A stretch of DNA of 64,000 nt, taken from Burkholderiales bacterium. Its GTDB lineage: Bacteria; Pseudomonadota; Gammaproteobacteria; Burkholderiales; Casimicrobiaceae. The stretch lies in assembly GCA_905339295.1 (NCBI GenBank), contig CAJPFI010000037.1:1-64000 (forward strand), in the 5' to 3' direction. Both the position numbers and the translations under genes were made by a program. A model generated the notes under the pieces. That model saw nothing but the letters and a program-made list of their open reading frames with translations, searched no databases and was not told where the DNA came from. This document shows positions 4,084-8,785 of this stretch, piece by piece (position 1 is the stretch's first letter; each line of letters begins with the position of its first letter).

Positions 4084-6294
4084 ATGGTCGCCGTCGTCCA
4101 CGCCAAGCCGGACTCCGCCGCGCCGCAGGCCGTCGCCGCGTGGCTCGAATCGCTCGCCGGGACCTATCCGCGCGAGGACGTCGACCTGTTCCGGGCCGCG
4201 TTCGATTACGTGCAGGAGCGCGCGGGCGCCAGGGCCGGCGCCGACGGCGAGGCGCTCGTCGACCGCGCGCTCGGGGTGGCCGGCATCGTCGCCGGGCTGA
4301 AGCTCGACCCCGAGTCGATCCGCGCGGCGCTGCTGGTCGTGCTGCCCGCCGCGCAGGCGTTCGATGCCGAGCAGGTCGCGTCCCGCTTCGGCGGCGGCGT
4401 CGCGGCACTGGTCGCCGGCGTGGCCCGCATGGAGTCGATCCGCGCGCGCAGCGTGGGCGCGACGCCCGACGAACGGGCGGCGCAGAGCGAGAACCTTCGC
4501 AAGATGCTGCTCGCCATGGTCGAGGACATCCGCGTGGTGATCGTGAAGCTCGCCGAGCGGCTGGCGGCGCTGCGCTGGCTCATGTCCGGCGACGAGGCGG
4601 AGCGGCGCGAGACGGCGCGCGAGGTGCTCGATCTCTACGCGCCGCTCGCCAACAGGCTGGGCGTGTGGCAGCTCAAGTGGGAGCTCGAGGACCTTTCGCT
4701 CCGCGCGATCGAGCCCGCGACCTACAAGCAGATCGCGGCGCTGCTCGACGAGCGCAGGCTCGACCGGCAGCGCTACATCGAGGACGTGGTCGCGACGCTC
4801 GGGCGCGAGCTCGAGGCGGTGCGCATCCACGCCGACGTTTCGGGCCGCCCGAAGCACATCTTCAGCATCTGGAGCAAGATGCGCCGCAAGCAGGCGGGCA
4901 TCGACTCGCTCTACGACATACGCGCGGTGCGCATCCTCGTCGACGACGTGAAGCAATGCTACGCGGCGCTCGGCATCGTCCACCATCTATGGACGCCGCT
5001 GCCCGGCGAGTTCGACGACTACATCGCGAAGCCTAAGGCCAACGACTACCGGTCGCTGCACACGGCGGTGATCGGTCCGGAAGGCAAGCCGCTGGAAGTG
5101 CAGATCCGCACGCGCGAGATGCACCAGCACTCCGAGTACGGCGTCGCAGCGCACTGGCGCTACAAGGAAGGGCCGGGGTCGCGCCGCGATCCGGCATTCG
5201 AGGACCGCATCGCGTGGCTGCGCCAGGTGCTCGACTGGAAGGACGCGATCGCCGACACGAGCGACTGGCTCGCGGCGTTCCGGCAGTCGCTGTTCACCGA
5301 CACGATCTACGTGCTCACGCCGCAGGGCAAGGTCGTCGACCTGCCGGCCGGCGCGACGCCGGTCGACTTCGCCTACGCGGTGCACACGAACCTCGGCCAC
5401 CGCTGCCGCGGCGCCAAGGTCGACGGCCAGATGGTGCCGCTCAACACCGTGCTGTCGAACGGGCAGCGCATCGAGGTGCTGACGGTGCGCGAGGGCGGAC
5501 CGTCGCGCGACTGGCTCAACCCGGAGCTGGGCTACGTCACGAGCCACCGCGCGCGCGCCAAGGTGCGCCAGTGGTTCAAGGCGCAGCTGCTCGACGAGAC
5601 GGTCGCGCACGGGCGCGCCACGGTCGAGCGCGAGCTCGCGCGCGCCGGAGCGTCGCTCCTGAACCTCGACGTGCTCGCCGCGAAGGCCGGCTACGGCAAG
5701 CCGGAGGAGCTGTTCGCGGCGGTCGCGCGCGACGAGGTCAACCTGCGCCAGCTGCAGACGGCGATCAAGTCGGCCGCCGCGCCGGCGCCCCCGCCGCAGG
5801 CGGCCCATGCCGCGGACGGCGTGGTGACGCGCGCGAGCCGCGCGGCCGGCTCGGGCAGCGGCATCCTGATCGTCGGCGTCGACCGGCTGATGACCGGCCT
5901 CGCGCGTTGCTGCAAGCCGGCGCCGCCCGATCCGATCGCGGGCTTCGTGACGCGCGGCAAGGGCATCACGATCCATCGCGCATCGTGCGCGAACCTCGCG
6001 CGAATACGCGCACGCGAACCCGAGCGGCTGATCGAGGCGGACTGGGGCGCGCGCCGCGACGAGGTGTTCCCGGTCGACATCGTCGTCGAGTCGGGCGACC
6101 GCCCGGGACTGCTGCGCGACATCTCCGAGGTCTTTTCGCGCGAGAAGATCAACGTGACCTCGGTCAACACGCTGACCAGGCAGCACCTGGCGCGCATGGG
6201 CTTCACGATCGAGGTGGCCGGCGTCGAGCAGTTGAGGCGCGCGCTCGCCCTGGTGCGGGAGGTGCCCGGCGTGCTCGCGGCCGGGCGCCGTTGA
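4084..6294 (+). CDS. relA: (p)ppGpp synthetase, RelA type
   Basis: Makes the stringent-response alarmone (p)ppGpp from ATP and GTP/GDP on stalled ribosomes. The N-terminal region has the HD-domain fold length but lacks the His-Asp metal ligands, so it should not hydrolyse (p)ppGpp. The synthetase domain (about residues 230-350) contains YDIRAVRILV and EFDDYIAKPKAN. The EXDD form is typical of monofunctional RelA, whereas bifunctional SpoT/Rel enzymes carry RXKD. A TGS domain (about 400-460) and a C-terminal ACT domain follow. At 736 residues it matches RelA. A hairpin with arms GCACGCGC/GCGCGTGC (4029-4049) lies between glmM and the ATG, suggesting separate transcription. Confidence 0.95.
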   Translation: MVAVVHAKPDSAAPQAVAAWLESLAGTYPREDVDLFRAAFDYVQERAGARAGADGEALVDRALGVAGIVAGLKLDPESIRAALLVVLPAAQAFDAEQVASRFGGGVAALVAGVARMESIRARSVGATPDERAAQSENLRKMLLAMVEDIRVVIVKLAERLAALRWLMSGDEAERRETAREVLDLYAPLANRLGVWQLKWELEDLSLRAIEPATYKQIAALLDERRLDRQRYIEDVVATLGRELEAVRIHADVSGRPKHIFSIWSKMRRKQAGIDSLYDIRAVRILVDDVKQCYAALGIVHHLWTPLPGEFDDYIAKPKANDYRSLHTAVIGPEGKPLEVQIRTREMHQHSEYGVAAHWRYKEGPGSRRDPAFEDRIAWLRQVLDWKDAIADTSDWLAAFRQSLFTDTIYVLTPQGKVVDLPAGATPVDFAYAVHTNLGHRCRGAKVDGQMVPLNTVLSNGQRIEVLTVREGGPSRDWLNPELGYVTSHRARAKVRQWFKAQLLDETVAHGRATVERELARAGASLLNLDVLAAKAGYGKPEELFAAVARDEVNLRQLQTAIKSAAAPAPPPQAAHAADGVVTRASRAAGSGSGILIVGVDRLMTGLARCCKPAPPDPIAGFVTRGKGITIHRASCANLARIRAREPERLIEADWGARRDEVFPVDIVVESGDRPGLLRDISEVFSREKINVTSVNTLTRQHLARMGFTIEVAGVEQLRRALALVREVPGVLAAGRR

Positions 6295-6301
6295 CGGCCG
6301 A

Positions 6302-6501
6302 GGGTCGGGCTTCCGCCCGACAATGCCATGTGGGTCGGGCTTCAGCCCGACGGTCTCATGTGGGTCGGGCTTCAGCCCGACAGCCCCCTGTGGGTCGGGC
6401 TTCAGCCCGACGGTCTCATGTAGGTCGGGCTTCAGCCCGACGGTCTCATGTAGGTCGGGCTTCAGCCCGACAGCCCCCTGTGGGTCGGACCTCGGCCCGA
6501 C
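6302..6501. repeat. Array of seven 30-bp palindromic (REP-like) repeats
   Basis: Seven units start at 6302, 6332, 6362, 6392, 6422, 6452 and 6482. Each has the core GTCGGGCTTCAGCCCGAC, a stem-loop with GTCGGGC/GCCCGAC arms, followed by a short linker. The period is exactly 30 bases. The first and last units are degenerate (TTCCGCCC; CGGACCTCGG). Linkers are of a few kinds: GGTCTCATGT three times, AGCCCCCTGT twice, AATGCCATGT once. The array fills the space between the convergent relA and DUF202 genes and ends four bases from the latter's stop, so in either direction the transcript can fold into a series of hairpins. Confidence 0.9.
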
Positions 6502-6505
6502 GGGT

Positions 6506-6901
6506 TCAGCCGAGCGCGAGGTAGAGCGCGAGCGCGCCGCCCAGCACCGCGAACGTCATCGCGAACGCGAGGGCCCGGCCGATGCCGTAGCCCGCCGGCA
6601 GATCGGAGTCCGGCAGCGTTCGCACGAAGCGCGCGTGCTGCACGCCGGCGAAAACGATCACCGCGACGCCGGAAGCCACGAGCAGGATCCCGATCAGGTT
6701 CGACGCGGACGTGTGCATCGGCCCCGTCGCCTGACCGATCTGCACGGACATGATGCTCACGAACAGCCCGAAACGCTCGACGACGAAGCCGAGCGCCATC
6801 ACGGCGATGCCGGTGCGCACCCACGCGAGCAGCGTGCGCTCGGCGGCGAAGTAGGCGCGGGGATCGTTCGTCATCTGCGGTGGCGCGGGGGACCCGCTCA
6901 T
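6506..6901 (-). CDS. DUF202 (YidH-type) small membrane protein
   Basis: A 131-residue inner-membrane protein of unknown function. The family signature AAERTLLAWVRTGIAVMALGF is near the N-terminus (residues about 19-39), and three hydrophobic segments are visible: IAVMALGFVVERF, LIGILLVASGVAVIVFAGV and ALAFAMTFAVLGGALALYLAL. This agrees with the three-helix layout of YidH proteins. The start is uncertain: ATG at 6901 (used) or ATG at 6874, neither with a good ribosome site. A longer open frame upstream is Arg/Gly-rich and overlaps msrB, so it is not coding. It lies downstream of msrB on the same strand. Confidence 0.85.
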   Translation of the reverse strand: MSGSPAPPQMTNDPRAYFAAERTLLAWVRTGIAVMALGFVVERFGLFVSIMSVQIGQATGPMHTSASNLIGILLVASGVAVIVFAGVQHARFVRTLPDSDLPAGYGIGRALAFAMTFAVLGGALALYLALG

Positions 6902-7005
6902 CGCGAGGATACGCGAGACCGGCGAGCGCCCGTGCGACCGAAGCGTTGTCGCGCGGGCACCGTGCCCCCGGGGAGTGGCTCGCGCAGCGCGCGCCGGGGT
7001 TTCGG

Positions 7006-7554
7006 CTATGCCGGGATGAATCGCAGCGCGACGCCGTTGTTGCACCAGCGCTGGAACGTCGGCCGCGGACCATCGTCGAACACGTGTCCGTGATGGCCGC
7101 CGCATTTCGCGCAGTGGTACTCGATGCGCGGATAGAGAATCCTGAAATCGGTCGACGTCTCGAACGCGCCGGCGATCGTGGTGAAGAACGACGGCCAGCC
7201 GGTGCCGCTGTCGTATTTCATCGCCGAGCTGAACACCGGCCACGCGCAGCCCGCGCAGACGTACACGCCCTTCCGCTTCTCGTCGTTGAGCGGGCTCGTG
7301 AACGGCCGCTCGGTGCCCTCGTCGCGCAGCACCTTGTACGCCTCGGCGGGCAGGCGCTTGCGCCACTCGTCGGCGGTCAGTTTGAGCGGCGTGGCGTCCT
7401 TCGCGATGTCGGCGTCCCTGGCGAGAAGCGTCCGCCATCCCTTGCGAAGCTCCTCGACCTGCGGCGTCGTCGTGCCCGGCGGCACCGGCCCGGCGCTCGC
7501 CGAGCGGACGAGCGGCAGGGCGGCAAGCAGCGTCAGCATCGTGCGGCGGTCCAT
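7006..7554 (-). CDS. msrB: Exported peptide-methionine (R)-S-oxide reductase
   Basis: Reduces methionine-R-sulfoxide in oxidised proteins. The N-terminus MDRRTMLTLLAALPLVRSASA is a signal peptide with twin arginines, so the enzyme probably works outside the cytoplasm. Zinc ligands are present as CAGC and CAKC pairs, and the catalytic cysteine lies in RWCNNGVALRF. The position that holds the resolving cysteine in E. coli-type enzymes (SGCGWPSF) is threonine here (SGTGWPSF), so recycling must use another thiol or an external reductant. The ATG at 7554 has a good GGAG ribosome site. A longer frame reaching 7605 is not needed. 182 residues. Confidence 0.93.
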   Translation of the reverse strand: MDRRTMLTLLAALPLVRSASAGPVPPGTTTPQVEELRKGWRTLLARDADIAKDATPLKLTADEWRKRLPAEAYKVLRDEGTERPFTSPLNDEKRKGVYVCAGCAWPVFSSAMKYDSGTGWPSFFTTIAGAFETSTDFRILYPRIEYHCAKCGGHHGHVFDDGPRPTFQRWCNNGVALRFIPA

Positions 7555-7669
7555 CGGCTTCTCCTTGCGTGGCCTGGTCGGTCCTGTCGACCCCTCGCGG
7601 GGCACGGAGGTTCCGCGCTCGCGGGTCCTGCCGGACAGTCGGCGCCGCGGGGGGCCACCTTACGCCCCG

Positions 7670-8785
7670 TCACAGCGCGAGGGGCGTCCCATAGCCGGTG
7701 AGTTCGAGGTACCCGCGCCCGGCGGGCAGGCCGCGGGCGCGCACCCGCACCGCGCCTTCCCAGTAGACGATGCCGACGCTCCCGCGTGCGTCGAGCTCCT
7801 GGTCGTCCATCATCGGCTCCAGCGCGACCGCGAGGTCGCCGGCGCGCACGTCGAAGGTTACCGGATAGACGACGCCGGTGCGCGGGGATCGCCACGTGCG
7901 CCCCGGCGCGAACGCCACCTCGTGCGGTGCGAACGTGCGCGTGCGCCCGGACGCGTCGCGCAGCGTCCCGCCCGCCCAGGTCGTGCCGCCGTCGCGGCCG
8001 CGCATCCGGAACGCCATCAGTGCGCCGCCGTCGTCGAGATTCACGCCGATCCAGTCCCAGCCCGACGCCTCCGCCGGGAGGTACGCGCTCGACCACTCAT
8101 GGTCGAGCCATGCACGCCCGCGCACCGCGAAGGTCCGTCCGCCGACCTCGATCGTGCCGCCGGTCGCGAGCTGCGGGACGCTGTAGTAGCCGCTCGCCTG
8201 GCCGGGCTTCGGCCCCTTGCTCGACACGCCCCGGTCGCCTTGCAGCAGGACGGGCTGCACCGCGCGGAACGCGAGGTCGAGCGCGAAGCCGCGCGCGTCG
8301 ATGCGCGCCCGGTACGCGTCACCGTCGCGCACGAGCGACCAGCGATCGATACGCACGTCGGTCGTCGCCGTCGAGGCGGCCGCGAGGCCGAATCCCGCGC
8401 GCGCGGCGCGTTGGTCGTGAACCAGCCGCCCGGTCGCGGCGTCCGCGACCGCGGCGTGGGCGAACAGGAGCTCGCGCGGCGCGAACGCGCTCACCGATGC
8501 CTCGCCGATGCCCGGCCGGCTGCGGAAGAACGTGATCTGCACGCCGCGCTCGACGCCGGCGTCGTCGGAGGTCCATCCGGTGACGTACCACCACTCGGTG
8601 CGGAAGTCCGGATGGCTGCCATGATCACGCGGAAAGGCGATCGGCATGCCCGGCAGCACGACCGGGTAGCGGACGCCCGCGTCCGTCACGACCGGCGGCA
8701 GCGTGCCGACGGCCTGGCCGCCGGCGAGCCGCGGCAGGCAGCCGAGCGACAGCGCGGCGAGTACCCGGCGGCGGGTGGCGATCAC
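7670..8785 (-). CDS. AttH/CrtC-like lipocalin-family exported protein
   Basis: Predicted 371-residue periplasmic protein of the lipocalin-like hydroxyneurosporene synthase (CrtC)/AttH family. Seen: a Tat-like leader (ATRRRVLAALSLGC...AGGQ), the early family signature DFRTEWWYVTGW, and the later WLDHEWSS and GWDWIGVNLDDGGALMAFR segments. A GTG start at 8785 overlaps the stop of the permease gene (GTGA), so it is coupled to the ABC transporter. AttH-like proteins commonly sit beside such transporters, and a role in handling a hydrophobic or lipid-type substrate is an inference from that context. True CrtC hydratase activity is unlikely, since no carotenoid genes are near. The substrate is unknown. 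Confidence 0.85.
   Translation of the reverse strand: MIATRRRVLAALSLGCLPRLAGGQAVGTLPPVVTDAGVRYPVVLPGMPIAFPRDHGSHPDFRTEWWYVTGWTSDDAGVERGVQITFFRSRPGIGEASVSAFAPRELLFAHAAVADAATGRLVHDQRAARAGFGLAAASTATTDVRIDRWSLVRDGDAYRARIDARGFALDLAFRAVQPVLLQGDRGVSSKGPKPGQASGYYSVPQLATGGTIEVGGRTFAVRGRAWLDHEWSSAYLPAEASGWDWIGVNLDDGGALMAFRMRGRDGGTTWAGGTLRDASGRTRTFAPHEVAFAPGRTWRSPRTGVVYPVTFDVRAGDLAVALEPMMDDQELDARGSVGIVYWEGAVRVRARGLPAGRGYLELTGYGTPLAL

Follow-up and report, generated by a model that had tools for sequence, protein, structure and literature searches.

A tandem array of REP-type palindromes between relA and a convergent DUF202 gene, probably of the RAYT-mobilised kind

The 200 bp at positions 6302 to 6501 of the window (the whole stretch of 64,000 nucleotides analysed here, on contig C37) are, with a probability of about 0.85, a cluster of REPs of the RAYT-mobilised kind, which would have inserted into the gap between relA and a convergent gene and then been amplified on site, linkers included. 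The array is a REP feature of an already known kind, and a fairly ordinary one. The source draft genome (G000) has 4.03 Mb in 60 contigs and is 98.13% complete.

Structure of the array

The array takes up 200 bp of the 211-bp gap that separates the stop codons of two convergent genes: relA, a RelA/SpoT family gene at 4084..6294 on the + strand (HD_4, RelA_SpoT, TGS and ACT domains; stop codon 6292-6294), and a gene with a DUF202 domain at 6506..6874 on the - strand (stop codon 6506-6508; start codon as given by the gene caller used here). Its first hairpin lies 9 nt past the relA stop codon and its last 4 nt from that of the DUF202 gene, and it donates no stop codon to either neighbour. Seven units of 30 bp run head to tail on the + strand, each made of an 18-nt palindromic core, GTCGGGC-TTCA-GCCCGAC, and a 12-nt linker ending in a 4-nt tag. 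Tandem Repeats Finder reports 6.7 indel-free copies with a period of 30, together with a second period of 90 bp.

The exact core (GTCGGGCTTCAGCCCGAC) is present in five of the seven units (units 2 to 6); the cores start at 6304, 6334, 6364, 6394, 6424, 6454 and 6484. Counted with the tag, units 2 (6330..6351), 3 (6360..6381) and 4 (6390..6411) carry GTGG, and units 5 (6420..6441) and 6 (6450..6471) carry GTAG. Unit 1 (6300..6321, tag GAGG) has one loop change and an intact stem, and unit 7 (6480..6501, tag GTGG) has a degenerate core with three changes, one of them breaking a stem pair. The linkers after units 1 to 6 are, in order, AATGCCATGTGG, GGTCTCATGTGG, AGCCCCCTGTGG, GGTCTCATGTAG, GGTCTCATGTAG and AGCCCCCTGTGG. 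An earlier, sequence-only reading of this DNA had described seven 30-bp palindromic units following relA and facing a convergent gene, degenerate at the edges and nearly identical inside, and this description holds in full. Its account of the linkers holds in part: they are drawn from a small recurring set, but they do not strictly alternate, their order being A-B-C-B-B-C.

Within the window the core is found 15 times at up to three mismatches, against a mean of 0.44 and a maximum of 2 in 100 shuffles. Thirteen of these matches are the array itself (six palindromes matched on both strands and the seventh on one), and the other two lie within genes, at 4291 and 55949. The folding energy of a single REP hairpin is -14.0 kcal/mol for RNA of the + strand and -13.5 kcal/mol for the opposite strand, and region 6295-6510 as a whole folds 4.9 standard deviations below shuffles. 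All seven units lie on one strand, and the array thus differs from a REPIN, whose unit consists of two REPs in inverted orientation. A known structured RNA was rejected as an identity, since the search gave only two matches, both to mir-4488, with E values of 0.46 and 0.58 and scores well short of the gathering threshold.

Copies in the source genome

The check proposed with the sequence-only reading, a search for the repeat elsewhere in the genome, returned 241 exact cores in G000 (117 forward, 124 reverse; reversed control 0). The 20-mer around the core matches at 530 places with at most three mismatches (control 12). Flanks and surroundings were studied in a REP sample, which consists of the DNA at places among the matches listed (contigs C3 to C21) plus the window, and was picked for REP content (45 loci, 273,526 bases, 236 copies, 114 exact).

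The tag directly 5' of the palindrome is GTGG in 167 and GTAG in 4 of the 191 sampled copies that have full flanks and at most two mismatches. The 3' side is much less conserved, its first position being G in 138 of the 191. Stem variants altered on both arms were also found, the three main ones in 9, 7 and 3 copies, and the hairpin itself is therefore maintained.

The element is thus a dispersed, high-copy short palindrome with a tag in the degenerate form GTRG, much as in the GTAG-type REPs, of which Di Nocera et al. (2013, PMC3733652, in extract) describe 24 families. Like those REPs and their REPtrons, it is a tagged short hairpin in hundreds of copies with paired stem changes, favours gene 3' ends and convergent gaps, and in relatives has a RAYT between its copies (PMC3733652). 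It differs from them in a tag that is mostly GTGG and in donating TGA stops from the loop, not TAG stops from the tag (PMC3733652). The extract reports the GTGG tag for most O. terrae GTAG-20 elements (PMC3733652). The core sequence was not found in the literature, the search covering open-licence PMC papers and so having little bearing on novelty.

RAYT genes in the source genome and its relatives

A RAYT transposase elsewhere in the same genome had been put forward as the mover of the array. The G000 assembly yielded no cognate RAYT flanked by the REP, and its one Y1 transposase gene (C44:11656-11982) has unrelated terminal repeats of its own. This missing RAYT counts against the RAYT-mobilised reading, as does the prevalence of GTGG over GTAG tags. 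As a mobiliser of the REPs this gene was rejected: it scores 64 bits against REP_Tyr_transpos (cut-off 80), its 3.3-kb locus holds no REP, the nearest cluster being about 2 kb from the gene, and its perfect 21-nt inverted ends, 885 nt apart, are its own. These ends form a family of 59 sites in G000 at up to three mismatches (control 0), many of them clustered on C44. The element (L031:1310-2236, TGGGGTCAGAGCC...) is TIRYT-like with its own repeat family, and fits the TIRYT description in the extract of PMC3733652, GGGGWSAS motif included.

A likely cognate enzyme belongs to G015, a congener with 200 exact cores. Its RAYT, of 154 aa, scores 137.8 bits against the REP_Tyr_transpos cut-off of 80, matches the solved TnpA-REP structure 4er8 (E 9e-11), and is flanked by clusters of the same core as the relA array. 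The 20 other congeners have 0 to 3 exact cores each, and in 13 of them a RAYT-like match (E <= 0.01) is just 22-36% identical.

Across the order, the exact GTRG-tagged core occurs in 8 of 250 sampled genomes, with 228 copies in G000, 102 in G090, 13 in G167, 4 in G053 and one each in four genomes. G090, G167 and G053 have RAYTs 41-46% identical to that of G015, and a G015-type RAYT was not found (E <= 1e-8) in the four single-copy genomes. One RAYT of G167 lies between inverted copies of the exact core; that of G090 has a close variant to either side and, on one of the sides, the exact core too. In the 1.5 kb on each side, the core is absent beside both G053 RAYTs, a tagged hairpin of another kind lying next to one of them. 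Two more RAYTs of G167 also lack it: the first is without any tagged hairpin and the second is accompanied by hairpins of other types. The core is thus missing alongside two of the three better-matching RAYTs in G167 (41-44% identity), which counts against the RAYT link. From the distribution as a whole, core and RAYT tend to co-occur, G000 excepted.

Among 80 named RAYT relatives, 55 were scanned and 33 have GTRG-tagged hairpins on both sides, a count made without a shuffle control. One of the 33, in a Sulfuricellaceae MAG (L108), has the GTCGGCC/GGCCGAC form of the core, a stem variant that is present in G000 and G015 too. Its REPs share tag, loop and outer stem with the G000 REP and adjoin a RAYT; they differ in their inner stem pairs (GC in place of CG) and belong to another family, with the RAYT present. 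Taken together, the 241 exact cores, the GTRG tag and the RAYTs flanked by the same core in relatives uphold the REP array reading that had been offered from the sequence.

The absence of the enzyme from the G000 assembly may have two causes. The draft often breaks within REP clusters: of the 120 contig ends, 34 have a REP (at most two mismatches) no more than 200 bp away, whereas interior 200-bp tiles hold one in 3 of 320 cases across the window and in 0 of 100 over the following 20 kb. REP-wrapped genes may therefore be missing from the assembly, and a RAYT wrapped in REPs could be hidden in one of its gaps. Alternatively, the RAYT may have been lost, and REPtrons may be missing through deletion, as in many E. 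coli strains, according to the extract of PMC3733652, so that a REP-bearing genome need not always have a RAYT.

The relA locus in congeners

The most similar RelA proteins among the congeners are those of G015 (84%) and G001 (82%). Both genomes keep the convergent relA/DUF202 pair, with REP-free stop-to-stop gaps of 43 and 8 bp, and the array was therefore most likely gained in the G000 lineage, although its absence in these two could also reflect loss. No DUF202 match (E <= 1e-3) was found at the other 12 relA loci searched, some of which end at contig ends, and because of this they are uninformative on the arrival of the array. Since G015 is itself REP-rich, the REPs of G000 and G015 occupy different places, at relA at least. 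The G015 relA gene has two REP copies, each with a single mismatch, on its upstream and not its downstream side (L048:4404-4452). The congener G014 has another inverted-repeat element just 3' of relA (L053, GGGGTCAGAGACGA... / ...TCGTCTCTGACC), and the GGGGTCAG end of this element is similar to the TIR family of C44.

Placement at gene 3' ends and effects on mRNA

Gaps between genes were classed with our own codon-score gene caller on the REP sample. REPs occur in 17 of the 32 gaps between convergent genes, in 22 of the 188 between co-directional genes and in 1 of the 24 between divergent genes; by Fisher's test the convergent class differs from the co-directional one at p 5e-7 and from the divergent one at p 1e-4. 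Forty-two of the 60 clusters lie in gaps and 3 within genes, the other 15 being at sequence edges and unclassed. As in GTAG-type REPs, the copies are mostly extragenic and at gene 3' ends. A REP overlaps the gene end or lies within 15 nt of it at 26 of 64 REP-facing 3' ends and at 5 of 30 REP-facing 5' ends, and at 46 of the 64 3' ends the gene and its nearest REP lie on opposite strands (p 0.0006).

At nine of these 64 3' ends the gene overlaps the REP in one fixed register, and the stop codon is the loop TGA read in reverse. These genes end in TCG (once TCC) GGC TGA, with Ser-Gly as the last residues, and are found one each in L181, L186, L187, L189, L190, L191, L197, L203 and L209. For one of them, precisely this ending is absent from all 11 orthologues compared, out of 20 other genomes with a match. 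The G015 orthologue ends in TCG GCC TGA, 11 nt ahead of another tagged REP, and this ending looks like a decayed REP copy. The termini of GTAG elements often supply TAG stop codons to genes, as stated in the extract of PMC3733652; the G000 tag is mostly GTGG, and here the loop gives TGA instead.

The base case for the relA array is a tolerated insertion. A REP would have entered the short relA/DUF202 gap after the split from the nearest sampled congeners, and the array would persist mainly because convergent 3' ends tolerate it. Recruitment into post-transcriptional control, with hairpins near the stop codons stalling ribosomes or protecting mRNA and so tuning RelA and DUF202 levels, is a tentative alternative, conceivable and on balance doubtful. 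It gains from the spacing of 9 and 4 nt at the two stop codons and from the 26 of 64 REP-facing 3' ends with an overlapping or close REP. It loses from the missing array in the two nearest congeners, and closeness to stop codons is equally expected if REPs merely fill short 3' gaps. Liang and Deutscher reportedly carried out the original study of E. coli REPs and ribosome stalling. E. coli REPs at most 15 nt from a stop codon stall ribosomes, as given in the extract of PMC12306157, and the hairpins of the relA array fall inside this range. The G000 REP differs from these E. coli elements in sequence and has a perfect 7-bp stem (PMC12306157). The stable hairpins in a row at both transcript 3' ends may slow 3'-5' decay and may, by analogy with the E. 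coli REPs, also lower translation. A mild post-transcriptional effect of the array is possible; mRNA stabilisation and termination are both named as hypotheses in the extract of PMC3733652.

Growth of the arrays

The sample holds 214 copies (at most three mismatches) in 60 clusters. REP neighbours within 150 bp are placed head-to-tail 101 times, tail-to-tail 33 times and head-to-head 20 times, and 23 runs have at least three copies on the same strand. A single linker length is kept in 13 of the 23, with periods that vary between runs (26, 30, 37, 38, 39, 42, 44, 45 and others). With the tag removed, linkers of one array are 0.884 identical to each other (102 equal-length pairs) and those of different arrays 0.374 (573 pairs similar in length), and none of the three linker words in the window array recurs elsewhere in the sample. 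The core is genome-wide, but the linker is private to its array, and arrays therefore grow by local tandem duplication after insertion. Duplication of multi-unit blocks, already suspected from the sequence of the relA array, gains support from these private linkers. The order A-B-C-B-B-C would be consistent with a history in which a B-C block and a B unit were each duplicated. In such a scheme, unit and linkers may have multiplied in place through slippage or unequal exchange, sometimes by one unit and sometimes by several at a time, and growth would have left older, degenerate units at both edges of the array.

Tandem REPIN clusters that include flanks are known from Pseudomonas fluorescens SBW25 (Bertels and Rainey, 2011, PMC3116915, in extract). 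There, as in the G000 array, the element repeats in tandem together with its flanks; the repeated unit in SBW25 is an inverted REP doublet, and in G000 a single REP with its 12-nt linker (PMC3116915).

In G015, 31 kb around the RAYT and relA (L044, L045 and L319) hold two REP classes, of 35 and 36 copies. Of 38 pairs of inverted neighbours, 37 combine the two classes, and in all 23 same-strand pairs both copies belong to one class. The second class accounts for 10 of 200 copies in G000, unlike in G015. Around the G015 RAYT (L044) the two classes, with GGGC and GGCC stems, face each other. At L044:5833-5930 one full REP is followed by four tandem 20-bp copies of the 3' arm alone (CTTTGGCTTCAGCCCGACGG), a pattern of tandem growth of a part-unit.

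That RAYT-mediated strand exchange among neighbouring REPs, in place of slippage or unequal exchange, built the array is unlikely. In its favour, RAYTs cut and recombine single-stranded tagged hairpins (PMC8266576, in extract), and the RAYT-bearing G015 likewise has same-class head-to-tail neighbours. On the pattern of the Marinomonas enzyme described in PMC8266576, a GTGG tag would be predicted to direct cleavage to CC or CA and not to CT. However, a RAYT was not found in G000, and multi-unit steps with private linkers need no transposase.

Termination and CRISPR readings

The sequence-only reading had further suggested a bidirectional terminator. That the array was selected as such, insulating two convergent genes, appears improbable. 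Its hairpins are stable on both strands (-14.0 and -13.5 kcal/mol), and REPs are enriched in convergent gaps. Against this, the array is without a T tract and is therefore no canonical intrinsic terminator. A terminator scan of 5800-7700 gave one terminator-like site, outside the array (0.7 expected), and none within it. The intrinsic form, a hairpin followed by a T run, was rejected on this basis, which bears on that form and not on a factor-dependent one. In addition, the same convergent pair in G015 and G001 does without REPs in gaps of 43 and 8 bp, and the same element occurs in co-directional gaps too.

A CRISPR-like or other short-spacer repeat array, suggested by the regular 30-bp period and the short palindromic repeats, has a negligible probability and is refuted, since the linkers measure 12 nt including the tag and recur where spacers should be unique, and the tagged core is dispersed over both genome strands.

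Implications for REPs with and without RAYT

A further proposal is that the G000 lineage lost its RAYT, that its orphan REPs can now increase in no other way than local tandem amplification, one REP at a time and with linkers specific to the locus, and that the loop UGA, read on the opposite strand, serves neighbouring genes as a recurrent stop codon. This is rather unlikely; the RAYT-bearing G015 also shows same-class head-to-tail neighbours.

Three points reach beyond this array. The REP-filled contig ends of G000 are a warning that a draft assembly may miss RAYT genes. G000, REP-rich and with a RAYT not found, and G015, REP-rich with a RAYT, offer a natural comparison of the fate of REPs with or without the transposase. 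Finally, two growth modes of the REP population are cleanly separable here, the core being common genome-wide and the linker local.
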